NCBI GenBank assembly: GCA_949297785.1
Contig: CASFTW010000003.1
Span: 1 to 64,000 of the forward strand
DNA: 64,000 nt
Reading direction: 5' to 3'
From: an uncultured Spirochaetales bacterium
Lineage (GTDB): Bacteria > Spirochaetota > Spirochaetia > Sphaerochaetales > Sphaerochaetaceae
Shown: positions 1,288 through 27,323 of the stretch, one piece after another
Layout: each line of letters starts with the position of its first letter
Numbering within the stretch: position 1 is the stretch's first letter
Made by a program: the position numbers and the translations under genes
Notes under the pieces: generated by a model
The model's database searches: none
What the model saw: only the letters and a program-made list of their open reading frames with translations
Told to the model about the DNA's origin: nothing

Positions 1288-2829
1288 TCAGTATTCTTTT
1301 TTGAATATAAATCTTCTTATTGCTTTTATCGATTGCTTTACATATGGATTTTTATGGAGAAATATAAATGCAATACAAATTGTTATTAAAAGTGGTACAA
1401 TTGTATGTGTTATTATCGCCATAATTCCAAACTTTGGAAGATAGTTTGTACATTTAAGAGTAACAAATATTACAACAATAACGAGTATTAACCTTGTCAA
1501 ATTGAAAAAAATATATTTTTTTGCACTAGCATGAAAGCCTCGATTCCAAATTACTAATGGCTCAACCCACATATCAATAGCAACTGATACCAAAATTGTG
1601 CCTAGCATGATACCGTCAAATCCCCAAAAATACCCTAATATAAAAGATAGAATAAAATTGGCAATCCCTGAAATAATGGCTCTTTTTCGATCGAACCAGT
1701 ACAATCCTAAGGAGGCTTTGTATGTATTATAGAGATATCTGTTACAACCTATATAAGAAACTAAACCTATAGCGATTGCAGAATGAAGAGGAAGACACCT
1801 TGCTTGGCCAAAAAAAGTGCCAATGATTGGATTTACAATATTTATCAGAATGATACTTAGTGGGCCATAGATCAAAAAAAAGGATATATCAATTGCCCAA
1901 AAACTATCTATAACTTTTGAAGAATCTTCAGTTGCGTTGATATTCCCTAATGATGCTGTTATGGCATTGGGTATTGCGCGGATAAAGCTCCGGACACCTA
2001 GATATATCATTTGATAATTTGAATATAACCCTAAAATTGAAGAGCCTACCAGAGCACTTATAAGAATGCTGTTTGTTGAGTCTGAAAAAACACCACCTAA
2101 TTTCCCTAAAATCAAACCCTTTATATTGTATATTATTTTCTCTTTGGTTTCAGATGATATCTTCTCTTTATTTCTCTTTTTTAAGAAGCAGTACTCCTTA
2201 TTTGCAATGTGGTTGATAAATGTACATCTGCCTAACATAAATAGTAAATTACACAACGCATATATAAGAAAATTATGTGTAAGTATAGATACGCTGATTT
2301 GTACTAAATACATCAATGCCCAAACTATATTTGTAATTAATGTAATGATATATTGTTTTTGATCTGCGTTGAAGAGAATTTGTTTATATGAAAAGTAATA
2401 TTCGAAAACTGTACTTAGAAGATATATTAGAAAATATACTTGTACATCTCTTATTGGGACTTCAGTTTTTGTAAAGTACTGTAGAAAAAAGGAAACAATT
2501 ATTCCTCCTATCAGAATAAGTGTTCCTATAGCTTTGTATAGACGTCTATAGAAATTCATTATTGCCCTGATTTCATCAAGGTTATCTTCAGCAAGTGGTT
2601 GATACAATGAATAGGCAATTGCAACGCTAAGTCCAAGTTCTGCAACAGACAATACAGAAATTACATTCTTAAACAGGCTATATAATCCAAGGTAATCAGG
2701 AATGAAACATTGATTGAATACCATTCGTTCTACAAAGCTGATTATTCCCATTACAATTTGGGTAATCATTGCAGTTGTTGCGTTGCGTGCTGAGTTTTTG
2801 AACCTGTATTCGTTTGTATTATTTGCCAT
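1288..2829 (-). CDS. wzx: Polysaccharide flippase, Wzx/MOP superfamily
   Basis: Integral membrane protein (about 513 aa) with 12-14 predicted hydrophobic helices and the RFKNSARNA N-terminal motif seen in oligosaccharide flippases of the MOP superfamily. It is expected to move undecaprenyl-linked repeat units across the inner membrane. The start is taken as the ATG at 2829 (MANNTNE). A longer open frame to 2895 would begin inside a strong terminator hairpin, and AGAAAGG lies upstream of 2829. It is AT-rich, like the GT4 gene that follows. With the Wzy-like gene at 5488 it gives the two membrane components of a Wzy-dependent pathway. The substrate is unknown. Confidence 0.85.
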   Translation of the reverse strand: MANNTNEYRFKNSARNATTAMITQIVMGIISFVERMVFNQCFIPDYLGLYSLFKNVISVLSVAELGLSVAIAYSLYQPLAEDNLDEIRAIMNFYRRLYKAIGTLILIGGIIVSFFLQYFTKTEVPIRDVQVYFLIYLLSTVFEYYFSYKQILFNADQKQYIITLITNIVWALMYLVQISVSILTHNFLIYALCNLLFMLGRCTFINHIANKEYCFLKKRNKEKISSETKEKIIYNIKGLILGKLGGVFSDSTNSILISALVGSSILGLYSNYQMIYLGVRSFIRAIPNAITASLGNINATEDSSKVIDSFWAIDISFFLIYGPLSIILINIVNPIIGTFFGQARCLPLHSAIAIGLVSYIGCNRYLYNTYKASLGLYWFDRKRAIISGIANFILSFILGYFWGFDGIMLGTILVSVAIDMWVEPLVIWNRGFHASAKKYIFFNLTRLILVIVVIFVTLKCTNYLPKFGIMAIITHTIVPLLITICIAFIFLHKNPYVKQSIKAIRRFIFKKEY

Positions 2830-2869
2830 ACCTTTTATTTGTAATCCTTTCTGGTCAGGTCTAATAAAT

Positions 2870-2903
2870 ATAAAACCGCAGTCTTTCTTTTGCAAGACTG
2901 CGG
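2870..2903 (-). terminator. Intrinsic terminator downstream of the RND gene
   Basis: Perfect 10-bp inverted repeat (CCGCAGTCTT at 2876-2885, AAGACTGCGG at 2894-2903) with an 8-nt loop. Read on the minus strand it is followed by TTTTATATTT. It lies 17 nt after the stop of the RND transporter and before the flippase start, so it separates their transcription units. Confidence 0.85.
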
Positions 2904-2919
2904 CATAATTGCTGGATTT

Positions 2920-5412
2920 TCAGTTTTTCTTGACAAGCTTTGCCAGTATTGCATCTCTTATTTTCACAGAGACAATCATCACTACCGGAAGAACGAATAT
3001 TGTGGCAAGCATTGCAACCGTAAGGGATATGCACATGAAGAGTCCGAAATACTGGATGGGGGTGAAGGAGGCAAGTGCGAGTACAATCATGCCTGCGACG
3101 ATTGATACTGTCGTCAGAATGATCGGTCTTCCAGTCTCATCAAGTGTTCTTGAAATGATTCCTTCAATCTTCTGTTCAGGGTATTTCTGTCTGTTGTATC
3201 TGTAGCGGAGCAGGAAGTGAAGGGCATCATCAATACCAGCACCGACTGTGACAGATGAGAATCCTACAGTAACAAGGTCAAAAGGAATGTTGCACACGTA
3301 CATGAATATGTAGTTGAACATGATTCCGATAACAACAGGAACAATTGAGACACAGCCTCTGAAAAATGAGAAAAGAGTGAATGAAGCAATGATGATGATG
3401 GCAATGATGGATATCCAGCTTGCCGTGTTCTGATCCTGCATTATCATGTCACTGGCACGGACGGTTTTCTCAATACCGCTCGAAAGCCTTGATGTGGTGC
3501 CTTCCGGCAGCATGTATCTGTAGTAATCAAGCACATTTGTCATTCTTCTGCCGCTGGCTGTTGTCTGGATGTTCTGCTCAAATGCATCATAGTTCCTCAT
3601 GGCAAGTGTCACCTGGGAACCGTCTTCACTGATGAGGGAATCAAGAATGCCGCCGTCAATATGTGCTTTCATCTGCTGCAGTGTCCTGTAGAGGAAGTTC
3701 AGCAGTCCGTTGTTTTCTGGAATTCCTTCTTCTCCGGAATATACTTTATTCAGGAATGCGACATACTGTGAGAAAGACAGGCTTTGTTCTATATCAGGGC
3801 AGGCGGCCATGACTGTTTCCTCATATTCATAAACTTTCTTGAGGTTTTCCCATTGCAGGAAGAATCCCGGTTCATTGTCCGGAGCGACAATGATCACATT
3901 ATACGGGTCTGTGCCGCCCATTGTCTGGGCAAAATAAATTGAATCCTGGACTAGGACGTCTTCCTGCGGGAAGTAGTCCATGTAATTTGAGTTGAAATCC
4001 ACTTTGTCATGAGTGAATGCAAAACCGAGTGTTATTGCCAGTACGATAATGAGAACAAGATACCAGTATTTTGTGACGGTTATACTGACAAATCTGATGA
4101 ATGCTCCCAGTATTTTTCCGTTCTCGATTTTTTCGACTTTCTTTTCCTTCGGCTGCGGCAGCAGTGACAGCACTGATGACAGATAGAGGATGGCAAGCAC
4201 CGCACAGCATGCAATGCCGATTGCTGCAGTCAATCCGAATTCACGGAACATCTTTGTTCTGCATACCATCATTGCAAGAAAGCCTACAACTGTTGTGAGA
4301 CTTGCAGAAAGGATTGTCTTTGAGATCCTTGCATATGCATTGACCGCTATCGCTGGGTCTTTTGCTTCTGCAAAATACTCAGAAAGCATATGAACAGAGT
4401 ATGAAGACCCCAGCGTCAGGACAAGACATGGCGTGAGAATTGTCACGATGGAAAGCTTATAGCCGAGAAGACTCATTATTCCCAGTGTCCATACAATACT
4501 TATCAAGGAGAGAGAAGAGGGTATGATGACTGCGCGGAGTGATTTGTATGAAAGGAAGTAAACAACCAGTATCACAAGGAAGCACATTGTCAGCAGCAGA
4601 CCGAGATCCTTGAATATATAATACGTGACGCGGTTTGTAATCGTACTTCCGCCATTCAGTGCCACACGTCCGTAATCTCTGAGCGGATCAATTACTGATG
4701 AAAGTACTTCCTGCTGTTCTGCATTATAGCTTCTTGTACGGTAATACAGCATGATTGTGTTTACATCATCGCTGTACAGGAAGTTTTTCGCCATATCGTC
4801 ATTTTCAAGTCTCTGACGGAAAATTTCTGCTGTTTCTTCCGTCCATTCTTCTCCGTCCTGGACAGGGGACATCGGAACAAGAGACAGCCTAGTTCCTTTT
4901 TTCTCAACCGTAACGAAATCAAATGGTGAAATGCAGTACCCTACAATATCTATTTCCTCCATTTCATCCATTACGTCGGAAATACAGTTGAGTACTTCCG
5001 GTGTATACATGAGTTCAGAAGAGAAGATAACTACAAAACCATCAGGAAATGAAGTATATTCCGTACCATCCAGAAATTCATCAGGAATGGCGATATGAAG
5101 TTTTTCATTTTCATCTCTATATGTATAGCCGTATTTTGGCAATTCAATGCCTTTAATTTCATCCGGAAGCTCATAGTATAATGGTTCATCTTCCGGAGCT
5201 TCTGCTGGAGTGAGAACGTATTCTGATGCCGGTACATCTGAAGTGAAACTGAATATTCCGGCATCAATCTGCAGATCTTTCAGCTGCCATGCAAAGAAAA
5301 GTGTCAGCGCTGCGATTATTATAAGTACCGGAATTCTGAAACGAAGGACATATTTGATAATTACTTCAAATATCCTCACGAAAAGGCTTTTTTTTACTTC
5401 ATTTTTTTCCAT
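2920..5412 (-). CDS. RND superfamily transporter (MMPL/HAE3 type)
   Basis: 830-aa inner-membrane protein of the RND superfamily, HAE3/MMPL branch (COG1033-like), members of which move hydrophobic or lipidic molecules without always needing a TolC partner. The layout is a duplicated unit: one N-terminal helix (about residues 24-44), a large extracytoplasmic domain, a bundle of five or six helices, then the same pattern again. The second bundle contains GAGIDDALHFLLRYRY, typical of these proteins. The first ATG with clear family start is at 5412; a TTG six codons upstream is less likely. There is no Shine-Dalgarno, and a TTTACC-17-TATACT promoter ends 8 nt before the ATG. It is less AT-rich than the polysaccharide genes on both sides, and has its own promoter and terminator, so it is probably an older resident. 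The cargo is unknown. Confidence 0.85.
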   Translation of the reverse strand: MEKNEVKKSLFVRIFEVIIKYVLRFRIPVLIIIAALTLFFAWQLKDLQIDAGIFSFTSDVPASEYVLTPAEAPEDEPLYYELPDEIKGIELPKYGYTYRDENEKLHIAIPDEFLDGTEYTSFPDGFVVIFSSELMYTPEVLNCISDVMDEMEEIDIVGYCISPFDFVTVEKKGTRLSLVPMSPVQDGEEWTEETAEIFRQRLENDDMAKNFLYSDDVNTIMLYYRTRSYNAEQQEVLSSVIDPLRDYGRVALNGGSTITNRVTYYIFKDLGLLLTMCFLVILVVYFLSYKSLRAVIIPSSLSLISIVWTLGIMSLLGYKLSIVTILTPCLVLTLGSSYSVHMLSEYFAEAKDPAIAVNAYARISKTILSASLTTVVGFLAMMVCRTKMFREFGLTAAIGIACCAVLAILYLSSVLSLLPQPKEKKVEKIENGKILGAFIRFVSITVTKYWYLVLIIVLAITLGFAFTHDKVDFNSNYMDYFPQEDVLVQDSIYFAQTMGGTDPYNVIIVAPDNEPGFFLQWENLKKVYEYEETVMAACPDIEQSLSFSQYVAFLNKVYSGEEGIPENNGLLNFLYRTLQQMKAHIDGGILDSLISEDGSQVTLAMRNYDAFEQNIQTTASGRRMTNVLDYYRYMLPEGTTSRLSSGIEKTVRASDMIMQDQNTASWISIIAIIIIASFTLFSFFRGCVSIVPVVIGIMFNYIFMYVCNIPFDLVTVGFSSVTVGAGIDDALHFLLRYRYNRQKYPEQKIEGIISRTLDETGRPIILTTVSIVAGMIVLALASFTPIQYFGLFMCISLTVAMLATIFVLPVVMIVSVKIRDAILAKLVKKN

Positions 5413-5420
5413 ACAGTATG

Positions 5421-5449
5421 AGTATAACAAGATTTAGAGCAGGGGTAAA
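5421..5449 (-). promoter_or_regulatory. Candidate sigma-70 promoter of the RND gene, short or no leader
   Basis: On the minus strand TTTACC (5444-5449) and TATACT (5421-5426) are separated by exactly 17 nt. The -10 box ends 8 nt before the ATG at 5412, so transcription would begin almost at the start codon, consistent with the missing Shine-Dalgarno. Confidence 0.5.
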
Positions 5450-5487
5450 TGTGCTTTTCTCAAGCAATAAGCTTGATAATATGGCGA

Positions 5488-7802: not shown

Positions 7803-7941
7803 GGTTGCTCCCAAATTTTTAGTCTGTATATTATGCATTACTTGCTATATTAGTACAAGATTGACTTCTGGTTTGCGCATTGCAGACTTATTGGATATTA
7901 GGTTAAGATTTTACTGACAATAATAGTCTGGAGAGTGATAC
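7803..7941. promoter_or_regulatory. Divergent intergenic region with promoter-like boxes
   Basis: The 139-nt gap between the leftward GT32-like gene and the rightward epimerase must hold both promoters. On the minus strand TTGTAC lies 18 nt before CATAAT, a fair match to sigma-70 boxes. On the plus strand TTGACT at 7861-7866 has no good -10 partner. No operator-like repeat is evident. Confidence 0.3.
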
Positions 7942-9021
7942 GTGAATAATAAAAACATACTGGTTACCGGATCAGGAGGTTTTATAGGATCCAATCTTTG
8001 TCTGGAGCTTTTAAGAAGATTTGATTCAATAAGCATTGTAGGAATAGATAACCTCAATGATTACTATGATGTGTCAATCAAAAAGTGGAGACTCAAGCAG
8101 ATTGAAGAAGAAGTCGGAAAGCATGAGGGCTCTTCGTTCAGCTTTGTAAAGGGAAGCATTGCAGATAAAGCACTGATTGATAAGCTTTTCGCTGAGAATG
8201 GTTTTGATATTGTTGTAAATCTTGCAGCACAGGCAGGGGTGAGGTATTCAATAACAAATCCCGATGCATATATAGAGTCCAATATAATAGGCTTTTATAA
8301 CATTCTTGAAGCCTGCCGTCATTCTTATGACAATGGTAAGAAGGGTGTTGATCATCTGGTATATGCATCCTCTTCATCAGTATACGGCTCAAACAAGAGG
8401 GTTCCTTATTCGACAGATGACAAAGTTGACAATCCTGTATCATTGTATGCGGCAACAAAGAAAAGCAATGAGCTTATGGCTCATGCATATTCAAAACTGT
8501 ACAACATACCTTCCACAGGATTGAGGTTCTTTACTGTTTATGGACCTGCAGGACGTCCTGATATGGCGTATTTCGGCTTTACAAACAAGCTTGTGAAAGG
8601 TGAGAAGATACAGATCTTCAATTACGGAAACTGCAAGAGGGATTTCACATACATAGATGATATAGTTGAAGGTGTCATAAGAGTAATGGAAAAGGCACCG
8701 GAGAGAAAGAGGGGAGAAGACGGACTTCCTGTACCTCCGTATGCACTGTATAACATAGGCAATAATAGCCCTGAGAATTTGATGGAGTTTGTGAAGATTC
8801 TCTCGGAAGAGCTTGTAGAAGCAGGAGTGCTTCCATCTGATTATGATTTTGACTCGCATATGGAGCTTGTTCCCATGCAGCCGGGAGATGTACCGGTAAC
8901 ATATGCAGATACCATACCGCTTGAAAGAGATTTCGGTTTCAAGCCCGACACATCATTGAGAGACGGGCTCAGAAAGTTTGCTCAGTGGTATAAAGAGTTT
9001 TATAATTTAAGAGATTGTTGA
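7942..9021 (+). CDS. UDP-glucuronate 4-epimerase
   Basis: 359-aa extended SDR epimerase that interconverts UDP-glucuronate and UDP-galacturonate. It shows the NAD-binding GSGGFIGS loop, the GIDNLNDYYDVSIK segment characteristic of the CapI/UGlcAE group, the YASSSSVYG active-site Ser/Thr strand, and the catalytic Y-x3-K in SLYAATKKS. The downstream RFFTVYGPAGRPDMA and RDFTYIDDIVEG blocks also match UDP-glucuronate epimerases closely. It starts at a GTG with GGAGAG seven nt upstream. It complements ugd (19368), which makes its substrate. The following ATPase gene starts 41 nt after its stop. Confidence 0.9.
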   Translation: MNNKNILVTGSGGFIGSNLCLELLRRFDSISIVGIDNLNDYYDVSIKKWRLKQIEEEVGKHEGSSFSFVKGSIADKALIDKLFAENGFDIVVNLAAQAGVRYSITNPDAYIESNIIGFYNILEACRHSYDNGKKGVDHLVYASSSSVYGSNKRVPYSTDDKVDNPVSLYAATKKSNELMAHAYSKLYNIPSTGLRFFTVYGPAGRPDMAYFGFTNKLVKGEKIQIFNYGNCKRDFTYIDDIVEGVIRVMEKAPERKRGEDGLPVPPYALYNIGNNSPENLMEFVKILSEELVEAGVLPSDYDFDSHMELVPMQPGDVPVTYADTIPLERDFGFKPDTSLRDGLRKFAQWYKEFYNLRDC

Positions 9022-9062
9022 GCTATATAACATCAGACTATATTGTTGGGAGCTTAAAAAGG

Positions 9063-10154
9063 ATGAGTATTAATTGGAGTATAAATAATATCTCGATAAA
9101 GGGCTTTAAATCCTTAAAAGAAATAAACAGGTTTGAACTTGGAAATCTGAATATAATCATAGGTGCGAACGGATCAGGTAAGAGTAATTTTATTCAGATT
9201 TTTCACATGCTCTCTGCAATAGCTCAGAAGGGGTTTTCAAAGTTCATCCTTGAAAGAGGAGGTGCTGATAATTTCCTTTTCAATGGGCCTAAAGTGACAT
9301 CTGAACTGGAGATGGAAATTAATTTCCAGACTGATGCCATTGGAATTCATTCTTATAGAGCAGTGTGCTCTCCGACTGCCGATGAAAGATTTCTATTGTC
9401 GGAAAGCGTAAAGCATGGACAGTCCGGATGGACTTCGTGTGGAGCAGTTTCAGAAGAAAGCAGGATTTCAGAAATCCGTGATGAAGACTGTATTTATGAT
9501 TTGATTTCCAACATTGTTGTTTATCATTTTCATGATACAAGTGCAAATGCTCCGATGCGAAGGTCTGAGATAGCTGAGGACAATAAAAGACTGCGAGGTA
9601 ATGCTTCGAATATAGCTCCGTTCCTTTTAGGGCTCAGGGAAAATAACCAAAAAGAGTATGAAGAAATCAGGAACGCTGTCAGACTTGTAATGCCTTTTTT
9701 TGATGATTTCATTCTTGATGTTGTCAAAATGGGTGAAGCTGAGAAGGTAAGGCTTTCCTGGAAACAGAAAGGAGCTGACTTTCCGATGCAACCATATCAT
9801 TTTTCTGATGGTTCTATACGTTTTATATGTCTTGCCACCGCTTTACTGCAGCCTGTTCTTCCTTCAATTATTGTCATAGACGAGCCAGAGCTTGGGCTCC
9901 ATCCTGCTGCTGTCTCAATTCTGGCTGAACTTATTCAGGCTGCATCTCATAAGGTTCAAGTCATTATTGCAACTCAGTCTCCTATGCTTATTGATCATTT
10001 CAGTATAAATGACATCATTGTTATGGGCAGGGAGAATGGGGCTTCTGCTATGAAGAGACTTGATCCTGATGACTTCTCGCTATGGCTTGAAGATTATTCA
10101 GTTGGTGAATTATGGGCAAAGAATGTCATTGAAGGAGGCCCTGTGAATGAATAA
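9063..10154 (+). CDS. AAA/SMC-like ATPase of an ATPase-DUF4276 two-gene module
   Basis: 363-aa P-loop ATPase of the AAA_21/OLD-like ABC class. The N-terminus reads SIKGFKSL, then Walker A GANGSGKS at residues 34-41; Walker B IIVIDEPELGLHP begins at 269 and a sensor-like IIATQSPML follows. There is no room for a TOPRIM domain on the same chain; that role seems to fall to the next gene, which overlaps this one by 8 nt. This arrangement (ABC-type ATPase plus TOPRIM-like partner) resembles OLD, Gabija and PARIS defence systems in logic; a defence role here is an inference. The start is the ATG at 9063, preceded by AAAAAGG and GGGAGC, rather than a longer frame overlapping the epimerase. It sits as a pair inside a polysaccharide locus, which suggests insertion. 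Confidence 0.85.
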   Translation: MSINWSINNISIKGFKSLKEINRFELGNLNIIIGANGSGKSNFIQIFHMLSAIAQKGFSKFILERGGADNFLFNGPKVTSELEMEINFQTDAIGIHSYRAVCSPTADERFLLSESVKHGQSGWTSCGAVSEESRISEIRDEDCIYDLISNIVVYHFHDTSANAPMRRSEIAEDNKRLRGNASNIAPFLLGLRENNQKEYEEIRNAVRLVMPFFDDFILDVVKMGEAEKVRLSWKQKGADFPMQPYHFSDGSIRFICLATALLQPVLPSIIVIDEPELGLHPAAVSILAELIQAASHKVQVIIATQSPMLIDHFSINDIIVMGRENGASAMKRLDPDDFSLWLEDYSVGELWAKNVIEGGPVNE

Positions 10155-10833
10155 CTATGCTACTGTGATGGCTATTGTAGAAGGGGCTACTGAAGAGAAT
10201 TTTATCAATACCGTTCTTGCACCATATCTGGGATATAAGAATATATGGATGCATGCTACGCAAATTTCAAAGCCGGGACAAAAAGGCGGGGATGTAAGAT
10301 TTGATAGAGTCAAGAATGATATAATGCGTCATCTGAAACAACGGAAAGATACGATTGTCACTTTGTTCCTCGATTTCTATGGATTAGCAGAATGGCCGGG
10401 ACTTGAATCTGTGTCTTTCAATTCTTCTCCTGCACAAATTGAACAGATATTATGTTATGCAACTAAACTTGAAATCAAAGGATTTCTTCCTGATGTTGAT
10501 GTAGAAGGGCGGTTTATTCCTTTCTTTATTGTACATGAATTTGAAACTCTGCTTTTCAGTAATTCTGCAGTTCTTGCAGATGGTCTTGGCATAAAAAAGC
10601 AAAAAATAGATAAAACGTTAAGAGAATTTAACGGCGATCTGGAAAGAATCAATAACAGCAGGGAAACTGCACCATCAAAACGTATTGAGAAATGGATGCC
10701 TTCATACAAGAAAACTGTGAATGGAATCCCAATCGCAGCAAAAATTGGTGTAGAGCAGATGCGGCGCTCTGTTCCATTATTCGATGAATGGATCACAAAA
10801 ATAGAACGAGTAAATTCTAAATGTACTGGATGA
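10147..10833 (+). CDS. DUF4276 family protein, TOPRIM-like partner of the ATPase
   Basis: 228 aa. The first strand carries IVEGATEENF (Glu12, Glu16, Glu17) and the next acidic element is TLFLDFYG (Asp76), followed by FFIVHEFETLLFSN. This is the pattern of DUF4276, whose fold is regarded as TOPRIM-like, with the Glu and Asp as likely metal ligands of a nuclease or phosphotransfer site. The start ATG has GGAGG ten nt upstream inside the end of the ATPase gene, so the two are translationally coupled and almost certainly act together. No membrane segment or DNA-binding motif is evident. Function in vivo is unknown; nuclease activity triggered by the ATPase is the simplest guess. Confidence 0.8.
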   Translation: MNNYATVMAIVEGATEENFINTVLAPYLGYKNIWMHATQISKPGQKGGDVRFDRVKNDIMRHLKQRKDTIVTLFLDFYGLAEWPGLESVSFNSSPAQIEQILCYATKLEIKGFLPDVDVEGRFIPFFIVHEFETLLFSNSAVLADGLGIKKQKIDKTLREFNGDLERINNSRETAPSKRIEKWMPSYKKTVNGIPIAAKIGVEQMRRSVPLFDEWITKIERVNSKCTG

Positions 10834-10857
10834 TTTGAAATTAGTTAGGGGATTCAT

Positions 10858-12621
10858 ATGAAATTGAAGAAGACTTTAGTTGTTTTATTACTACTGATCA
10901 TTTCTGCATCATTTGCATGGGCAGTCAATTATCAGAAGACATATCAGATGAGTGATGAAGTATGGGTCAGGACAAACAGGCTTTGTGTGTCTGCGGGATA
11001 TCTAGGGCCGGCTCCGGTTTCTCCTATCAGCGGAGCTGAGATAATGAATGCACTTGAAAGACTGGATTACTCAAGTCTTTCTTCATGGCAGAAGGAGGAA
11101 TACGATTATCTTGTTTCAAAGCTTTCCAATCCTACTGAAGGCGTGGCTTTTACAGGTAAGAACATAATATTTGATCCTCAGCTGTTCATAGGAATTGAAG
11201 GATATGCTTTCAATAATCTGAAGGATACGCCAGTCGATGAATTCTTTATCCCTTATCGTGACAGGATTCCTTTCTTCTATGCCGGTATCGATTCATATTT
11301 CGGAGATCTGGCTTATATCAACATGCAGGCATTGTATAAGGACGGTTTGAGAAGTTTTGAACTTGATGACGGAAAGGTTACAAGTGTGCCGGATGGCAAC
11401 TTCTATAACTTCTCAAACTTCAGTTTTCTCATGAGCCCTGTATATGGTGGGGGATGGTCTTTCCTGAACTCAAAAGACGGTGCCAATTACGGGATTCAGA
11501 GTTTCCAGCCGGTCAAGGCCGGTGGTTCTTTCGGTAATGAATTCATGAATCTGTTCATCGGCCGTGACAGGCAGGCATTCGGAAACGGAATTACCGGAAA
11601 TATGGTCATCGGAGATAATTTCTCATTCCAGGAGATTGTGAAGCTTTCATTCTTCTCCGATATATTCTCATACTACATTTCCCTTACACATTTTGATAAT
11701 GTTGAAAATGATCAGCCTTTTTCCTTTAACGGTTTTCATCAGAACAGGCTTATCCACAGATTTGACATAAACCTCTTCAACAAGTTCCGCATAGCAGTGA
11801 ATGTCGGAGCTCATATGCTTACAGATTCACCATTCGATTTCAGAATGCTGAATCCCATGATGCTCGTTCATAACTGGCGGAATAATAAGGAAGCAACCGA
11901 ATGGGATCCGTCAAAACAGGATGAGCTGAACAACATTCTCGGCTTTGAATTCGAATATGCCTTCTATCCGGGATTTATCGCTTCTGCCCAGATTGTGATT
12001 GATCAGTTCCGGCTGTCAGTTGAAAAGGATTCTCAGGTTCCATCGGCCTTAGGATTCCTTGGCAATCTGAAACATGTTGCCAAGGTCGGAGATGGGTACC
12101 TTGAGTCATGGTTTGAAGCGGCATATACATCTCCATATCTGTATCTGAATTACAAAACTTTCAATGGAGATGCCATGTTTGGGCTTGATCACATTGTCGG
12201 TTACAGTTATGGAGCCAATGTACCTGGAGAAGTTAGCTATACAGGGTATATTTACGGTCCTGATGCTATAGTCCTGGCAGCAGGAAGTGAATATGCTTCT
12301 TTTGATTCATGGACAATTGGCGGAAAGCTTTTATACATGGCACATGGCGAATACGGATATAAGAGTTATCTGGATCCGGAAAAAGATAAAGATAAGTATG
12401 AAAGTGGATTGAACAATATGGATAAAGCAGATCCGTCAACTCCTTCCGGTGTTGTCGAATATACGCTGGCGCTGACTGTTGAAGGTTCTTATCATATTCT
12501 TGATAATCTTGAGCTGACCGGTGCTGTTTATGCTTCCTATAAATGGAACTATCATAACGAGAAAAATGTGAACAGAGGAGATGTGCAGGCTGCCATAGGA
12601 CTGTCCTGGACCATTATTTGA
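10858..12621 (+). CDS. Outer-membrane capsule-assembly protein, Wzi-like (copy 1)
   Basis: 587 aa with a clear Sec signal peptide (KLKKTLVVLLLLIISASFAWA) and a long run of alternating aromatic/polar strands ending in LSWTII, as in an outer-membrane beta-barrel. The domain order (short helical N-terminal part with LERLDYSSL, then barrel strands with FIGRDRQAFGNGITGNM and FRMLNPMMLVHNW) fits the Caps_assemb_Wzi group, which anchors or exports surface polysaccharide. A paralogue with the same layout (GRGQLSLGNGMMGNL, FRVFNPLLIMHGF) lies at 23437-25155. It starts 24 nt after the DUF4276 gene; AGGGG precedes the ATG. The exact polymer it handles is not known. Confidence 0.75.
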   Translation: MKLKKTLVVLLLLIISASFAWAVNYQKTYQMSDEVWVRTNRLCVSAGYLGPAPVSPISGAEIMNALERLDYSSLSSWQKEEYDYLVSKLSNPTEGVAFTGKNIIFDPQLFIGIEGYAFNNLKDTPVDEFFIPYRDRIPFFYAGIDSYFGDLAYINMQALYKDGLRSFELDDGKVTSVPDGNFYNFSNFSFLMSPVYGGGWSFLNSKDGANYGIQSFQPVKAGGSFGNEFMNLFIGRDRQAFGNGITGNMVIGDNFSFQEIVKLSFFSDIFSYYISLTHFDNVENDQPFSFNGFHQNRLIHRFDINLFNKFRIAVNVGAHMLTDSPFDFRMLNPMMLVHNWRNNKEATEWDPSKQDELNNILGFEFEYAFYPGFIASAQIVIDQFRLSVEKDSQVPSALGFLGNLKHVAKVGDGYLESWFEAAYTSPYLYLNYKTFNGDAMFGLDHIVGYSYGANVPGEVSYTGYIYGPDAIVLAAGSEYASFDSWTIGGKLLYMAHGEYGYKSYLDPEKDKDKYESGLNNMDKADPSTPSGVVEYTLALTVEGSYHILDNLELTGAVYASYKWNYHNEKNVNRGDVQAAIGLSWTII

Positions 12622-12641
12622 AGATTTTCAGAGGAAGAGAG

Positions 12642-13876
12642 ATGTATTTGCTGAAGCACAAGGATGACACAGTTGCTGTAATAGATATTGTTGGCAGTGA
12701 TGCGTCCGGTATCAGGATCAATGAGATAGTGAATAATCATCTGCTTCCTCTTTGTGCCCAGCATGATATATCAAAATATAGCACTGGTGGAAGAGAAGGG
12801 CAGTGCCGGCTTCCCGGCCGGGTATAAGGCAGCTTCTGAGTGAGAGGCATATTGCATCTGTGCATCAGTTTCTGCTTGAGAACCTTGCATTGAATGTTAC
12901 AGACTGTTACTGGATATGTCCTCAGTCCTGGAATATTTCATGGGACAGTGTTTCATTTCATAAGAATGAATTCAAAGATGATCTTCCTTTCAACAGTACT
13001 GGAAACAGTTCTGATATTTTTGCAGGATCTTCATACAATCCTTCTGCTTCGCTTGGCGGTGATCTCGATAAACGGTGGATAAAAAAGAAAGGCAGGATGT
13101 TCCTTGTAAAAGGAAACATGCCCTGCAACTCTTTCCAGCAGTCGCTGAATGAGGTGTTTGCATCATAGCTTCACAGGAAACAGAAATTTGTCAATCATGT
13201 TGAATATAAGTTGGTGAAGTTGAAGGACGGTACTATTGGCTGTATATCGCCGTGTTTCACAAGCGATGATGTCGACTCCGCCTGGGAGATATTCGATAAA
13301 TACGGATATGACAAAAACAGTTCCTATATGGAGCAGTATGTTTTGCATTGTGCTGAGGAAGGAGCCGATCCTGCCTGCATCCGGAATTTTCTTGATTATC
13401 AGGCAATGACAGATTTCCTTATGACCAACAAGGACCGTCATCTGGCAAATTTCGGTCTGCTGAGAGATTCCAATACACTTGAGTGCATCGGTCCTGCTCC
13501 GATATTTGATACCCGCAACAGCATGTTCTATGATGGCGTTGCCGTTGTGAATTACCGTACAATGCTTGATGTGAGAATACAGAGTCTGTATTCGACAGAA
13601 CGGAAAACCATGGAGAATGTTATTAGCCAAGGTGTAGTACATCTGGATAAAGTGCCTGATACCGCTTCAGTCAGAGAGTTTTATGAGCAGGATCCGACTC
13701 TCGTTTCATTTGCATCCAGAATTGCCGACAGTTTCGAATTCAAGTGTGCAATGGCAAAAGAACTTCAGGACGGAAAATCCTTCAGCCAGATAGCAAGAGA
13801 AATCATCTCCTTCTATTCCGGCAGGGGGAAGGAAGAGAAGGAGTCGCTTGCTTTGTATTCCAGAAGCATTTTATAG
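12642..13876 (+). pseudogene. HipA-like Ser/Thr kinase, broken by a frameshift and an in-frame stop
   Basis: Three collinear pieces make one HipA-like protein. The first (from ATG 12642, after AGAGGAAGAGAG) reads MYLLKHKDDTVAVIDI, the usual N-terminus of the short-N HipA group. Near 12783-12786 the frame shifts by one base, after which WWKRRAVPASRPGIR and CYWICP follow in the new frame, both family hallmarks. At 13166-13168 a TAG interrupts this same frame between NEVFAS and LHRKQKFVNHVEYKL. The rest is intact and includes the kinase catalytic region FLMTNKDRHLANFGLL and the metal-binding IFDTRNS. With two lesions it is almost certainly inactive. No homopolymer tract lies at the frameshift, so phase variation is unlikely. 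No partner antitoxin (HipB) is seen beside it. Confidence 0.8.
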
Positions 13877-13884
13877 AATATCTT

Positions 13885-15054
13885 TCACTCGCCAAGCAGC
13901 TTGTCGGCTACATCTCTGAGCACGCCATGTCCGCCAGCATATGGTGAAATATAATCCACAACTGAACGCACTGCCTCAACCGCATCTGCCGGGCAGCAGC
14001 TGTATCCGGCAGCCTTGAGCAATGGCAGATCGATCAGGTCATCACCTATATAGAGCACATTGTCCAATGTCATGTTCTCAGTCTTGCACAGTTCCTTCAC
14101 ATATGAAAGCTTGTCACTGCATCCCGGCTTGTAGAAATCAAGTCTGAGCTTTTCAACCCTGCGACGATTCAGGTCGACATTCTCGCCTGTCACAATTCCG
14201 GTGAGGAATCCTTTTTCTCTGAGCAGGGCGAAGCCTTTGCCGTCTTTGGTGTTGAATTTCTTGAGCTCATCTCCTTTTTCGGAGTAATACATACCTCCGT
14301 CCGTAAGACATCCGTCACAGTCAGTGAGCACCATTTTTATGTTTCTGAAGTCTTTCTGTCCTGCAAGGCCTTTCTTTTTCATGAGCATTTCGATGATCAC
14401 CCAGTCGGACGGCTCATCAATTTCAAAGAAAGAATCTTCATCCATTTCGACAGCCCTGATATTTCCGCTCACTCTGTTCTTTGTTTTCAGAAGATCAGCT
14501 TTTGATGTGATGTAGAATGCTCCATTTTCCACCAGATATCCGTCAAATTCCTGCCTTCTTGGGCGGTGGAACACATCATAGTTTGTAGGATGCACAATGC
14601 CATTTTCATCACAGGCCCAGTTGAAACGTTTCTGACGGACTACAGACAGCACGCTGTCAGTACCTGGCTGCGAGAAAAGTTCAAAACCTTTATCAAGGTC
14701 GGCTGCTGTCAGTAGGGGAGAGGTTGCCTGCACCAGCGCGATATTGTCAAATTCGTATGATGGTGCGAATTCAAGCATTGCAGATTCCGTAGATGCCGTA
14801 TCTGATGCTGATTGTGCAGATCTTCCAATAACTCTCAGTTTTGAAAAGCACGGTGCTTCAGCTTTAAACTTCTCTGCTGTTTCCTTTATTGCCTCACTGT
14901 CTGTGGCTACATAGACGGTGTCAATGTATCTGCACTCGCATGCGGCCTTTACTGTCCAGTAGACAAGCGGTTTACCGCAGATAGGTTTTATATTTTTTAG
15001 CGGAATTGACTTACTTCCTCCGCGCACCGGAATGAAAGCTGCATTCATTTTCAT
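13885..15054 (-). CDS. Fused CMP-nonulosonate synthetase and KdsC-like HAD phosphatase
   Basis: 389 aa in two domains. Residues 1-230 are an acylneuraminate/KDN cytidylyltransferase: FIPVRGGSKSIPLKNI is the CTP-binding loop, and VQATSPLL and EIDEPSDW follow as in NeuA. Residues 239-389 are a HAD phosphatase of the KdsC type with nucleophile motif LTDCDGCLTDGG (Asp245, Asp247), IVTGEN and IGDDLIDLPLLK. Fusion of these two activities suggests a route in which NeuB makes a 9-phosphate intermediate that is dephosphorylated and then activated with CTP, as in animals and in Bacteroides KDN synthesis. The gene overlaps the CBS-cupin gene by an ATGA, with GGAGA before the start. Whether the product is CMP-Neu5Ac or CMP-KDN cannot be read directly. 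Confidence 0.85.
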   Translation of the reverse strand: MKMNAAFIPVRGGSKSIPLKNIKPICGKPLVYWTVKAACECRYIDTVYVATDSEAIKETAEKFKAEAPCFSKLRVIGRSAQSASDTASTESAMLEFAPSYEFDNIALVQATSPLLTAADLDKGFELFSQPGTDSVLSVVRQKRFNWACDENGIVHPTNYDVFHRPRRQEFDGYLVENGAFYITSKADLLKTKNRVSGNIRAVEMDEDSFFEIDEPSDWVIIEMLMKKKGLAGQKDFRNIKMVLTDCDGCLTDGGMYYSEKGDELKKFNTKDGKGFALLREKGFLTGIVTGENVDLNRRRVEKLRLDFYKPGCSDKLSYVKELCKTENMTLDNVLYIGDDLIDLPLLKAAGYSCCPADAVEAVRSVVDYISPYAGGHGVLRDVADKLLGE

Positions 15055-15809
15055 ATTCTCCCATATTTATCTTCATAGCGGATTATATCATCTTCACCAA
15101 GATATTCTCCGATCTGCACTTCTGTGATGATGAGCGACTGTTTTCCATCTGTATTGATGAGTCTGTGCTTGGCGCCTTTGGGGATGTAGATATAGCTGCC
15201 GCAGCTGATTTCCTTTATATCATCCTCAAGCTGGACACGGCCACTGCCGTGCACCACTATCCAGTATTCCTCCCTGTGCTCATGAGACTGCAGGCTCAGC
15301 TCTTCTTCCGGTTTTACGCTTATCACTTTTGACTGATAGTATTTGTTCAGCACCGTGGTTTTATAAAAGCCCCAGGGGCGCATGAATATCTCACTGTCGA
15401 TGACACTTGTGTCAAGAGAGAGAAAATCGAAGCAGAGATCAGCCGGAATATCCTGAAGGAGCATGGTATGAAACTGGGCTTTTGTTATTATGTTTTCCAG
15501 TTTTCCATCATCTCCCAGTATGGGCAGGAACTTAATTGCCTGGCTTTTGAAAAGCTCGCTGACAATGTCAAAAGTATCTGTTACCTTGACAGCCTTTGCG
15601 TTTTGAGTGCAGATATTCATGACTTTATCAGAAAGCAGATGGCCGGAAAGCAGGGCACGGCGGACATCACCGTCCGTAAGGACACCTGCAACATGTTCTT
15701 CATCATCGATGACGATGAGAAAGCCCTGTTTGTTACGGTCTATCTTATGCAGAGCCTGTGAAAGCTCTGCCTCTTTGCTTATGATGAATGGTACAAGGTT
15801 CTCTTTCAT
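15051..15809 (-). CDS. CBS-domain pair fused to a type II mannose-6-phosphate isomerase cupin
   Basis: 252 aa. Residues 1-118 hold two CBS repeats (FLIVIDDEEHVAGVLTDGDVRR is the first core; KFLPILGDDGKLENIITK the second), modules that usually sense adenine nucleotides. Residues 140-252 form a cupin with RPWGFYKTT, SLQSHEHREEYWIVVHGSG, YIPKGAKHRLIN and EVQIGEYLGEDDIIRYEDKYGR, closely matching the isomerase domain at the C-terminus of ManC-type enzymes. The His/Glu metal ligands (HEHREE) are present. No nucleotidyltransferase domain is attached. Between neuB (7 nt upstream) and the NeuA-HAD fusion (4-nt overlap), its likely job is to make mannose-6-phosphate for NeuB, perhaps under nucleotide control. 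It might alternatively bind a sugar phosphate without catalysis. Confidence 0.8.
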   Translation of the reverse strand: MKENLVPFIISKEAELSQALHKIDRNKQGFLIVIDDEEHVAGVLTDGDVRRALLSGHLLSDKVMNICTQNAKAVKVTDTFDIVSELFKSQAIKFLPILGDDGKLENIITKAQFHTMLLQDIPADLCFDFLSLDTSVIDSEIFMRPWGFYKTTVLNKYYQSKVISVKPEEELSLQSHEHREEYWIVVHGSGRVQLEDDIKEISCGSYIYIPKGAKHRLINTDGKQSLIITEVQIGEYLGEDDIIRYEDKYGRI

Positions 15810-15816
15810 TTCTGTT

Positions 15817-16689
15817 TCAGTGCTTTCTGTATTTCAGCTTGTCTCTCTGTACCTGCTCAATCGGAAGAATTTCTTCTTTTTTATAGGTCAGCGCTTCATA
15901 CACATTGTTGAGATCCCTTACCAGACTCTTGATTCCGTACGGTTCAAGGGATGCTGCATGGTCGGTTCCTTTCCATGTTCTGTCCAGCGTGTAGTGACGC
16001 TCTATTATATGTGCACCCAGCGTGTATGCTGCAACATCAACTGCAATGCCGAGGTGATGGCCGGAGAAGCCTATCGCCTTTACTCTGGATTCATACTTCT
16101 CCCTCAGCCTCTTGATTTCAAGCAGACATATGTCCTGATATGGAACAGGATAGCCTGATGTGCAGTCGAATATGACAAGATCTTTTGCTTTTCCGTTGGC
16201 TTCAAAGAGAGAGACAATCTTCTCTTCTTCCTCATGCGTTGTCATTCCGAATGAAAGCTGGATCTCTCCTTTATAGTTGTCACAGAGCCACTGCAGCATT
16301 TCATAATGGGTATTGCAGGCTGATGGGATTTTAATGAACTGCGGCTTGAGGGATGCGATTTCCTTTGCACTTGTCATATCCCAGACAGAAGTGGAGTAGA
16401 TTATTCCGACCTGTTCGCACCATTCCTTGAGCTGGGCATGCTGGTCAACTGTGAATTCAAGAGCCTCCCTGTGTTCTCCATATGTCTTTCCATATGAGTT
16501 TTCCGGATGGGGGTGCGGTGCGTTGTACTGCTCCGGGGTCAGCAGTTCTTTCGGACATCTTTTCTGAAATTTTATCGCATCCGCCTTGCAGTATATCGCG
16601 GCGGTGTTTATGAGTTCATGTGCAATTTCCATTTCACCTTTGTGGTTGCACCCGGCTTCAGCTATGACAAATGGTTTCCTGTATTCCAT
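15817..16689 (-). CDS. neuB: NeuB-type nonulosonate (9-phosphate) synthase, no SAF domain
   Basis: 290-aa TIM-barrel enzyme that condenses phosphoenolpyruvate with a mannose-type sugar or its 6-phosphate. The start of the barrel reads FVIAEAGCNHKGEMEIA, with AIKFQKR, IKIPSACNTHY, LSFGMTT and GFSGHHLGIAVDVAAYTLGAHIIERHYTLD all typical of NeuB (metal ligands in GHH and ERHYTLD). The C-terminal SAF (antifreeze-like) domain of most NeuB proteins is absent, making it about 50-60 aa shorter. The start is the ATG at 16689 with AAAAGG nine nt upstream; an open in-frame extension to 16992 has no family similarity and runs through a terminator-like hairpin. First gene of a three-gene leftward operon. 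Confidence 0.9.
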   Translation of the reverse strand: MEYRKPFVIAEAGCNHKGEMEIAHELINTAAIYCKADAIKFQKRCPKELLTPEQYNAPHPHPENSYGKTYGEHREALEFTVDQHAQLKEWCEQVGIIYSTSVWDMTSAKEIASLKPQFIKIPSACNTHYEMLQWLCDNYKGEIQLSFGMTTHEEEEKIVSLFEANGKAKDLVIFDCTSGYPVPYQDICLLEIKRLREKYESRVKAIGFSGHHLGIAVDVAAYTLGAHIIERHYTLDRTWKGTDHAASLEPYGIKSLVRDLNNVYEALTYKKEEILPIEQVQRDKLKYRKH

Positions 16690-17185
16690 CTTTTCAATCC
16701 TTTTCCTGATTAAAGAGAAATAAACAGAAGGCATACCTTCTGTTTTGACTATAACATGAAGAGTGATGTTTAAAGAAGTATGAAATTTACTGTGCGTTGA
16801 GTGGTCCTGTTTTCTGCAGGTGCTTTGTTTGTTGAATGTATTTAGAAAATAAAAGGCTGAAATCTGAAAAGAGATCATCTCTTTTATCAAAAAACCTCCA
16901 CACAGGGAGGTTCCCAACGGGGCCGCGTACAGAAACAGTACGCTTAAAAACAAAGCTGGCATCCCGCCGGTGAGCAGTCCATATAAAAACATATGTCTGC
17001 GTTACAATAATAAACAGAAGAAGGTGATTTCGTCAAAGTCCGCATCGTATATCAAACACGGTATGAATTTGCTCGTCCGGTATCGTGTCGTCAGATGAAC
17101 CTTTCAGGAGAAGGAGATGTGCAAAAATGTAAATTATAGAATATGATAGATCATGCATTACTTACTATGCAGCAATAGGAATGAT
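16690..17185. other. 496-nt gap holding a structured element and no intact gene
   Basis: Between neuB and the XRE-like remnant. Bases 16867-16885 form an almost perfect palindrome (AAAAGAGAT, one base, ATCTCTTTT). Bases 16885-16990 contain three consecutive hairpins (listed separately). The part nearest neuB (16690-16866) should hold its promoter and leader but no convincing boxes stand out. From about 17020 to 17140 one plus frame reads KVRIVYQTRYEF and LSGEGDVQKCKL, which vaguely resembles a HigB-like toxin remnant; this is weak. Confidence 0.4.
16885..16990 (-). ncRNA. Candidate structured RNA or attenuator upstream of neuB
   Basis: Read on the minus strand, three hairpins follow each other: ACCGGC/GCCAGC around 16954-16973, GCGTAC/GTACGC (perfect 6 bp, 7-nt loop, 16925-16943), and AACCTCC/GGAGGTT around 16893-16912 followed directly by a T run. 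The last is an intrinsic terminator. The element lies about 200 nt upstream of the neuB start in the same orientation, so it could be a stand-alone small RNA of about 110 nt or a leader that controls read-through into the operon. It does not match tmRNA, SRP RNA, 6S or a riboswitch I recognise. Confidence 0.4.
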
Positions 17186-25676: not shown

Positions 25677-27323
25677 ATGAATGAAATATTTCACGGGGAT
25701 TATTGCTATCGGCGCCGCTTATTGAGTATCTTTTCCATTATGGATGGCAGGATTGTTTACATTTCACTCGGCGATGAGACCATAAGGGAAGAGAAAGCAG
25801 AGGAAGACTTCTCCATCCCATCGCTTTATACCCTTGCGGGGGATTCATCTTTTGTTCTTGCCTTCCCATGCAATGATTTCAACCTGTGCGGCATGGTTGC
25901 CGTATATAAAAACGCAAAAGGGAAAATCTGCCGCGACAATGCCCAGCCGGTTCTTTCCCGCCATATGAAGAAAGCAGGCATAAAAGCTGTTGTGGTGAGC
26001 GGAGTTGCCTCAAAACTCTCATATCTTTACATGAGTGACGATAACATTGCCGTGTATCACTGCGAGAACATAAGGTTCTGCTCCCCATACCGCTTTGCCG
26101 AGGTCCTGCTTTCTTCTCCTGATGACGCTTTCATTGCAATAGGAGAAGCGGGCGAGAAACTCAGTCCTCTTTCAATCTGCTGCTGTGACAGCGGCATAAC
26201 AACAGGCCGGGGTGGTCTTGCGTCCATGATGGGAAAGATGAACTTCAAAGGGATCATCTCTCATACCGTGCTTGAAGATGATGAGAAGCTGCAGTACAGA
26301 ATAAGAAGAAAGAACAGGACAGCCCTGATGAGCGATATGTCCCTTTACGGTTCGGCTGTCTTTCTGGATTACGGGGCGTCCTGCGGATGGGCTCCTAAAA
26401 ATGAATTCAGTCCTTATTATGATCCCCGTCTCAAGGCTCTTGACGGCAGAAGCCAGAGCCGTGAATACAAAGTGGAAAAGAGCGGCTGTCCTCTCTGTCC
26501 TGTTCCATGTTCCCTTGTCGATACCGCTACGGGGATGAGGCTTCCTTCCTGGATGGAGGCCATGTGTCTTGGAAGCAATCTGGGAATATTCTCAACAGGG
26601 AAAGTCTCACGGCTGCTGCATCATTGTCTCTCGCTCGGGCTTGACCCGTGTGCCGCCGGGGAGATGCTTTCATTCCTGAACACTCTTGACAACCCTGACT
26701 ATACGATTCCAACTGTGAAGGACACCTCACTTGAAGAGAAATGCAGGATTCTTTCGCTCATTGCATCCCGGAAGGGGGCAGGCGAGATCGTGTCGGGAGG
26801 CTTTGATGCGCTTCCCGATGCTCCTTCAATTGACGGAGGAGCCTGCATCTATGACTTGCGCGGTGCACATGCACAGGCGCTTTTTTCTGTATACGGGGAG
26901 AATACACCGTGCTATGTTGATCTTGTCAGAAACCTCAAGGGCAGACTGCCTGCAGAGCTTACAGGACGTGCTGCTGCATATCTGAGGATATACACACACG
27001 CGATGGAGAATATGGGCATTCCTTCATTCTTCATGCTTCCTATTTATTTTGATACTGTGCCGTTTCTTTTTGCGGGTAACCTTTCTGTTCTGAGGCTGAT
27101 CATGAGAGGTTTTACGGTGGGGAAGCTGAAGAACAGGGAACTGCTTGAAAGCGGGCTTGAATCAGTCCTTCTTTTTGACAGCCTGCACGGAGAAGCCGCC
27201 ACTCTTCCATCCGTTTTCCTTCTTCCCGGAAGGTGCGGGTACACCGATGAAGTGAACATGGTGAAACTTATGAGTGGATACCTTTCGGAAATGGAGTATA
27301 TTAAAAGAAAGGCAGGTAAGTAA
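25677..27323 (+). CDS. Divergent aldehyde:ferredoxin oxidoreductase family protein
   Basis: 548 aa, similar in layout to AOR-family tungsten/molybdenum enzymes that oxidise aldehydes to acids with ferredoxin. N-terminal AOR region: KKAGIKAVVVSG and AIGEAGEKLSPLS followed by TTGRGGLASMMGKMNFKGI, the pterin-binding glycine run. The iron-sulfur cluster ligands are present as C271-x2-C274-x3-C278 (CPLCPVPC) and probably C520. SWMEAMCLGSNLGIF and GLDPCAAGEML match later AOR blocks. It is shorter and more divergent than usual AOR proteins (about 600 aa), so substrate and activity are open. ThiS/MoaD-like partner genes are not adjacent. The ATG has only a weak ribosome site. Glf begins 5 nt after its stop. 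Confidence 0.7.
   Translation: MNEIFHGDYCYRRRLLSIFSIMDGRIVYISLGDETIREEKAEEDFSIPSLYTLAGDSSFVLAFPCNDFNLCGMVAVYKNAKGKICRDNAQPVLSRHMKKAGIKAVVVSGVASKLSYLYMSDDNIAVYHCENIRFCSPYRFAEVLLSSPDDAFIAIGEAGEKLSPLSICCCDSGITTGRGGLASMMGKMNFKGIISHTVLEDDEKLQYRIRRKNRTALMSDMSLYGSAVFLDYGASCGWAPKNEFSPYYDPRLKALDGRSQSREYKVEKSGCPLCPVPCSLVDTATGMRLPSWMEAMCLGSNLGIFSTGKVSRLLHHCLSLGLDPCAAGEMLSFLNTLDNPDYTIPTVKDTSLEEKCRILSLIASRKGAGEIVSGGFDALPDAPSIDGGACIYDLRGAHAQALFSVYGENTPCYVDLVRNLKGRLPAELTGRAAAYLRIYTHAMENMGIPSFFMLPIYFDTVPFLFAGNLSVLRLIMRGFTVGKLKNRELLESGLESVLLFDSLHGEAATLPSVFLLPGRCGYTDEVNMVKLMSGYLSEMEYIKRKAGK

Follow-up and report, generated by a model that had tools for sequence, protein, structure and literature searches.

Why does a surface-sugar locus of a spirochaete carry two overlapping genes that resemble the parts of an anti-phage system, and what might their products do? 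The genes lie in the window, the whole 64,000-nucleotide stretch analysed, whose host genome comprises 2.2 Mb in 50 contigs. The first (9063–10154, + strand) opens with an ATG at 9063, closes with a stop codon ending at 10154 and encodes a 363-aa ATPase. The second (10147–10833, + strand) encodes a 228-aa DUF4276 protein, and the closest named relatives of this gene belong to uncultured Spirochaetaceae. The two reading frames share 8 bp, ATGAATAA (10147–10154, + strand), just as the original prediction had described, and Pfam assigns AAA_21 to the first protein (E = 9.8e-33) and DUF4276 to the second (E = 9.8e-46), both well outside what chance would give.

An accessory pair in a surface-sugar locus

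The immediate neighbours of the pair are an NAD-dependent epimerase gene upstream and a gene for a predicted outer-membrane protein downstream, within a surface-polysaccharide region. DUF4276 is present in one of the 16 genomes of the genus and absent from the other 15; at the family level, 12 of 139 genomes carry it. In particular, blastn synteny and the junction sequence indicate that a segment holding the epimerase gene and the pair (about 7865–10847) is missing at the corresponding site of a genus-mate (G013). A contig of that genome (C5) is collinear with window positions 2591–5450 and 10848–16802 at 91–92% identity, and at the junction about 105 bp separate its glycosyltransferase gene (72% identical) from the gene for the outer-membrane protein. 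Its epimerase gene is found on a different contig, adjoining a UDP-sugar dehydrogenase-like gene, and in G011 the epimerase gene is followed by other sugar genes. Similarity to relatives ends at 9007 and restarts at 10848. The sugar-locus insertion that had been proposed from the window agrees with this arrangement.

We saw no integrase or IS beside the pair, and the repeats at the site are short, imperfect and chance-like. Scanning for promoters and terminators returned sites no more numerous than in shuffled sequence, and the base composition of the pair is not distinct. At this surface-sugar locus, the pair is accessory cargo occupying a junction that varies between genomes.

The same position, with an epimerase on one side and an outer-membrane-protein-like gene on the other, could instead be that of a resident pair serving polysaccharide synthesis or variation, and polysaccharide genes are found close to a few further loci. 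We consider this hardly tenable, as the pair is lacking in 15 of the 16 genus genomes and at the site itself in the collinear genus-mate, and its relatives occupy unrelated contexts that include restriction operons and plasmids.

Other genes of the window were also read. The predicted outer-membrane protein (10858–12621, + strand) has no Pfam or NCBIfam match and is present in several genus-mates. Farther downstream, a HipA-like gene (12803–13876, + strand; HipA_C, a weak match at 1e-4) is split by an in-frame TAG stop, and the corresponding frame is unbroken in the collinear genome. A protein with aldehyde ferredoxin oxidoreductase domains is encoded at 25677–27323 (+ strand), and a UDP-galactopyranose mutase-like gene, read from sequence, adjoins it.

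The first protein is an ABC/OLD-type ATPase

The predicted structure of the ATPase (pLDDT 92.7) has an SMC/Rad50-like ABC head (Z 23–20); it also matches PtuA, and the Foldseek list includes GajA and TsOLD. The original prediction called the protein both ABC-type and AAA. The first term holds, in the sense of an ABC/OLD protein with the SMC/Rad50 fold, and agrees with the description of OLD ATPases as ABC-type (PMC12839542). The second does not, as the protein is not AAA+ despite the Pfam name. A Pfam label for the protein, 'putative AbiEii', raised a type IV toxin as a candidate, which was rejected, as the model is that of an SMC/Rad50-like ABC ATPase.

Its nucleotide-binding motifs were compared among 33 homologues. 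Walker A, GANGSGKS (G34–S41; 9162–9185, + strand), has invariant G34, N36, G39 and K40, and the ABC signature-like FSDGSI (residues 247–252; 9801–9818, + strand) has invariant S248 and G250. Walker B with the catalytic Glu, VIDEPE (to E276; 9867–9890, + strand), has invariant E274 and E276, so both Walker motifs are as intact as had been noted from the window. The H-loop reads ATQS (9969–9980, + strand), with Gln replacing the switch His according to the homologue comparison. This Gln occurs across HEC-01 proper, the group containing the pair, except in L073, and the sister clade has His.

The DUF4276 partner resembles a class 2 OLD catalytic region

Sequence searches of the PDB with DUF4276, using either the single sequence or a profile, returned no true relative, and the RqcH rows (E 0.4) are chance matches. 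The AlphaFold2 model of the partner (pLDDT 93.7, pTM 0.90) places helices at 132–226 after a TOPRIM core. Foldseek ranked the C-terminal regions of the Xanthomonas and Burkholderia OLD proteins first (E 5e-3 to 9e-3, probability 0.95–0.99). With VIA-align, the model matched BpOLD (6nk8) at Z 9.3 over 181 residues and 4.7 Å and XccOLD at Z 9.0–8.6, with OLD matches spanning 170–181 residues; AriB followed at Z 8.1 and 7.8, and the next row, an unrelated protein, scored 7.2. The margin of the predicted fold match is moderate, yet it extends over the entire protein, helical domain included. By hhalign, DUF4276 aligned to a spirochaete OLD TOPRIM profile at 58–70% probability, with VEGATEE on VEGSTEE, as compared to 0.3% for an ATPase-profile control.

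We then traced the active site. Among 32 DUF4276 homologues, D76, E133 and K189 do not vary, and E12 and E131 are almost invariant. The E12 and D76 of the original prediction are therefore at the positions given and are conserved. The BpOLD alignment starts at model residue 4 and chain residue 392, placing E12 on E400 and E16 on E404, and the AriB alignment starts at 3 and 17, placing E12 on E26, whose role in AriB has been described (PMC12409363). The remaining equivalences were drawn from the order and spacing of the motifs and the structural elements they occupy, with E-D, D-E and E-K spacings of 64, 57 and 56 residues in the partner versus 55, 53 and 54 in BpOLD.

Based on these alignments and the roles of the BpOLD residues in metal binding and catalysis (PMC6755086), E12 and E16 (10180–10194, + strand) would be the counterparts of E400 and E404, which serve metals A and B. 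D76-F-Y78 (10372–10380, + strand) would correspond to D455-x-D457, with the second Asp now aromatic. E131-F-E133, the HEFE motif at the first helical-domain helix (10537–10545, + strand; model helix 132–138), would correspond to T506 and E508. Finally, K189 (10711–10713, + strand) would take the place of the catalytic K562; it opens helix 189–200, the fifth of the helical domain, and K562 of BpOLD is likewise on the fifth helix of its helical domain. The class 2 catalytic region is thus represented by its fold and by equivalents of E400, E404, D455, T506/E508 and K562, with Y78 at the D457 position. On the predicted model and the alignments, the partner corresponds to the catalytic region of a class 2 OLD nuclease and keeps nearly all putative metal-binding and catalytic residues. 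This differs from the original prediction, which had assigned the partner to a different family from those of OLD, Gabija and PARIS; the profile comparison also relates it to OLD TOPRIMs.

Residue 78 is Tyr or Phe throughout HEC-01 proper, and DxD is retained in distant DUF4276 proteins such as L069, L084, L086 and L088. In these four, which form part of the sister clade, both DxD and the H-loop His are kept, and both are altered in HEC-01 proper.

The loss of the second DxD Asp makes the activity of the putative nuclease less than certain. The DUF4276 protein of HEC-01 proper could have become catalytically dead when DxD gave way to DxY, and could then only bind or signal; the aromatic residue throughout the group, the DxD of its distant relatives and the replacement of the H-loop His by Gln in nearly all of the ATPases would all suit such a change. 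A dead enzyme would have no need of E12, E16, D76, E131, E133 and K189, all of which are kept. Moreover, D457 of BpOLD contacts metal A via water only, and the single D457A substitution had no visible effect (PMC6755086). Loss of Asp at position 78 consequently need not mean an inactive enzyme, and we regard a dead partner as very unlikely.

The pair is the catalogued candidate HEC-01

The pair had been put forward as a candidate anti-phage module, and a catalogue of defence systems already lists it as one. The ATPase matches the PADLOC model for HEC-01A (PDLC04175) at 2.1e-131 over residues 6–360, and the DUF4276 protein matches the HEC-01B model at 2.5e-65 over residues 5–223, scores that are far above those for AriA, AbiLi, mad3 and GajA. 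Both proteins are matched, and their genes are adjacent on one strand with the 8-bp overlap. Because the matches are full-length for both proteins, the pair is not a new candidate system. HEC-01 in PADLOC-DB 2.0 has both genes full-length, adjacent and in the same order, with some relatives nested in restriction operons; we found no difference between it and the pair, and HEC-01 is itself a computed candidate. The genes can accordingly be annotated as HEC-01A, an ABC/OLD-type ATPase and putative sensor and regulator, and HEC-01B, a DUF4276 TOPRIM protein with a helical domain and a putative nuclease effector.

As cited in PMC12988326, HEC stands for 'Hma-embedded candidate', a term from guilt-by-embedding work (Payne et al. 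bioRxiv 2024), and several HECs, including HEC-06, showed antiviral activity according to this citing paper. In the literature searched, we found neither an antiviral statement or published phage test naming HEC-01 nor a mention of 'DUF4276' or 'PF14103'. Detection of HEC-01 in Desulfovibrio piger has been reported (PMC12724379), and the Pfam entry for DUF4276 assigns no function. What we add to the catalogue is that, judging from the predicted structure, DUF4276 looks like the catalytic region of a class 2 OLD nuclease, split off as a protein of its own and carrying a changed DxD motif.

The likeness to OLD, Gabija and PARIS that had been pointed out extends to all three, as the ATPase and TOPRIM pair is related to each of them. 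Class 2 OLD proteins and GajA share with the pair an ABC/OLD ATPase, a TOPRIM domain followed by a C-terminal helical domain, and the catalytic positions E, E, D, E and K, which follow one another in an identical order and fall on corresponding structural elements. They are single polypeptides, whereas the pair consists of separate ATPase and TOPRIM proteins, and Gabija has a UvrD-like GajB helicase alongside, where the pair has the epimerase and the predicted outer-membrane protein and no GajB. Compared to class 2 OLD, the second DxD Asp is replaced by Tyr or Phe, the T506 position by Glu and the H-loop His by Gln. PARIS (AriA and AriB, a proposed class 4 OLD) likewise encodes its ATPase and its TOPRIM protein in two neighbouring genes, and E12 is placed like E26 of AriB. 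The AriA models score 1.5e-31 against the ATPase, however, as opposed to 2.1e-131 for HEC-01A, and the AriB models do not match the DUF4276 protein at E up to 1, so that the likeness is in fold only (Z 8.1). In AbiL and MADS, the AbiLi and mad3 models give the ATPase moderate scores, but none of the models for their partners is matched by the DUF4276 protein. Around BREX and related systems, dyads of an OLD-ABC sensor ATPase and an exchangeable alternative nuclease have been described (PMC12839542), although the main text of that work does not name DUF4276.

The genes travel and evolve together

In nearly all of the spirochaete loci fetched, the ATPase gene is directly upstream of DUF4276, and the pair was found in all 11 plasmid loci opened, with the genes abutting or overlapping. 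The pairwise distances of the two proteins are strongly correlated (Mantel r 0.95 for 25 loci and 0.85 for the 20 loci of HEC-01 proper; 0 of 5000 permutations). In the tree, a single group (support 100/98) unites the ATPase of the window and the four spirochaete proteins nearest to it with ATPases from Aeromonas plasmids and that of one further spirochaete, and most spirochaete ATPase homologues fall outside this group. The grouping with Aeromonas plasmids indicates transfer between phyla. No relative was found in phage genomes, IMG/VR or complete E. coli genomes at the sensitivity used. Across the loci and trees compared, these gene comparisons show near-obligate adjacency, co-evolution, an accessory distribution and interphylum transfer of the pair.

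A neighbourhood survey had been suggested as a check for defence enrichment, and its outcome depends on the group surveyed. Several plasmids of Gammaproteobacteria and Betaproteobacteria show clear enrichment. On the Aeromonas plasmid pE31A, the pair lies between type III methylase (MTase_III, 6e-228) and nuclease (REase_III, E 0) genes; on the conjugative plasmid pHX3, it likewise lies between type III mod and res; on pMC64A, it is downstream of a DrmD-like helicase; and in Ideonella, it is flanked by a DNA methylase and an Mrr-like gene. The remaining plasmid copies are solitary, one of them adjoining VapBC and a tetracycline-resistance gene. In Spirochaetes, enrichment was not demonstrated, as 98 PADLOC models were matched among 124 neighbours versus 50 among 124 control genes from the same genomes, a difference that is not convincing when many of the models match one same protein. 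The window's copy is alone among sugar genes. As a separate observation, pHX3 encodes a fused OLD-type protein (L056:6797–8677) just upstream of the type III genes and the HEC-01 pair.

The plasmid copies bear on whether the pair could be an addiction module. In a few relatives (G046, G090 and G267; loci L003/L099, L068 and L091), the DUF4276 frame is broken and the adjacent ATPase frame intact, in a DUF4276-centred survey with small numbers and possible draft errors. Broken DUF4276 beside an intact ATPase might be expected of a costly effector. It would also suit a toxin-antitoxin module of plasmids and islands, in which the ATPase is an antitoxin-like restrainer and the main role is stabilisation of the element rather than defence; the pair occurs on both small and conjugative plasmids, and one AriA chain is titled 'AriA antitoxin' in the PDB. 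A large ATP-binding ATPase is nevertheless unlike the usual antitoxins, it repeatedly adjoins restriction genes, and the addiction mechanism itself overlaps with abortive infection. We consider such a module distinctly unlikely as the main explanation.

A proposed restrained effector and its possible target

We propose as moderately probable that the pair is a portable HEC-01 module, in effect an OLD nuclease split in two, in which the ATPase restrains a putative nuclease that acts by abortive infection. The ATPase and the DUF4276 protein would form a complex in which the nuclease is kept inactive. The trigger sensed could be either a product of the phage or an assault on the restriction defences of the host. 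A change in ATP state would then activate or release the nuclease, which would cut nucleic acid with Mg2+ and halt growth before phage maturation, as in PARIS. There, once the ATPase has sensed the trigger, AriB is set free as a dimer, which cuts tRNA (PMC12409363).

The target may be either nucleic acid. Were it DNA, as in Gabija and class 2 OLD, the effector gated by the ATPase would be a nonspecific DNA nickase or exonuclease and would destroy the DNA of the phage, a direct interference rather than suicide. The nearest solved folds are indeed class 2 OLD catalytic regions with a K562-equivalent lysine, the partner has a helical domain of the type for which DNA binding has been proposed in the class 2 enzymes (PMC6755086), and a location inside a type III restriction operon suits DNA cutting. 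Here, however, the halves are separate proteins and no GajB-type helicase adjoins them, and AriB, whose fold match is nearly equal (Z 8.1 versus 9.3), is a tRNA cutter. Direct destruction of phage DNA is thus a plausible but rather unlikely account. PrrC, a module nested in a restriction operon, is a tRNase, and AriB is the only TOPRIM effector made as a separate protein whose target is known. By analogy to these two tRNases, an ATPase-restrained nuclease acting on RNA, for example tRNA, is slightly favoured over one acting on DNA.

Reading the pair as a split class 2 OLD gives a widely scattered candidate defence system a testable active site and forms a bridge between DNases of the Gabija type and tRNases of the PARIS type. 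Such a reading would also help to decide how separating the nuclease from the ATPase alters the target and the mode of defence.

The effector may also be exchangeable. In one relative (G022; L132:1504–3442), a HEC-01A ATPase (8e-106) is followed, again with an 8-bp overlap, by an sce7726-family protein (3e-46) that replaces DUF4276 and whose sequence, on inspection, seems to resemble that of a PD-(D/E)XK nuclease. This partner swap fits the theme of an OLD-ABC protein with an exchangeable nuclease (PMC12839542). More tentatively, and with some doubt, HEC-01 could be an OLD class of its own, with a freed class 2-type catalytic region whose metal A site has been remodelled to D-x-aromatic, and with Gln in the H-loop of its ATPase; its ATP-gated control, trigger and target would then be unlike those of Gabija and PARIS, and one sensor family would be served by swappable effectors. 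The ATPase and sce7726 pair of L132 adjoins a UDP-sugar dehydratase-like gene.
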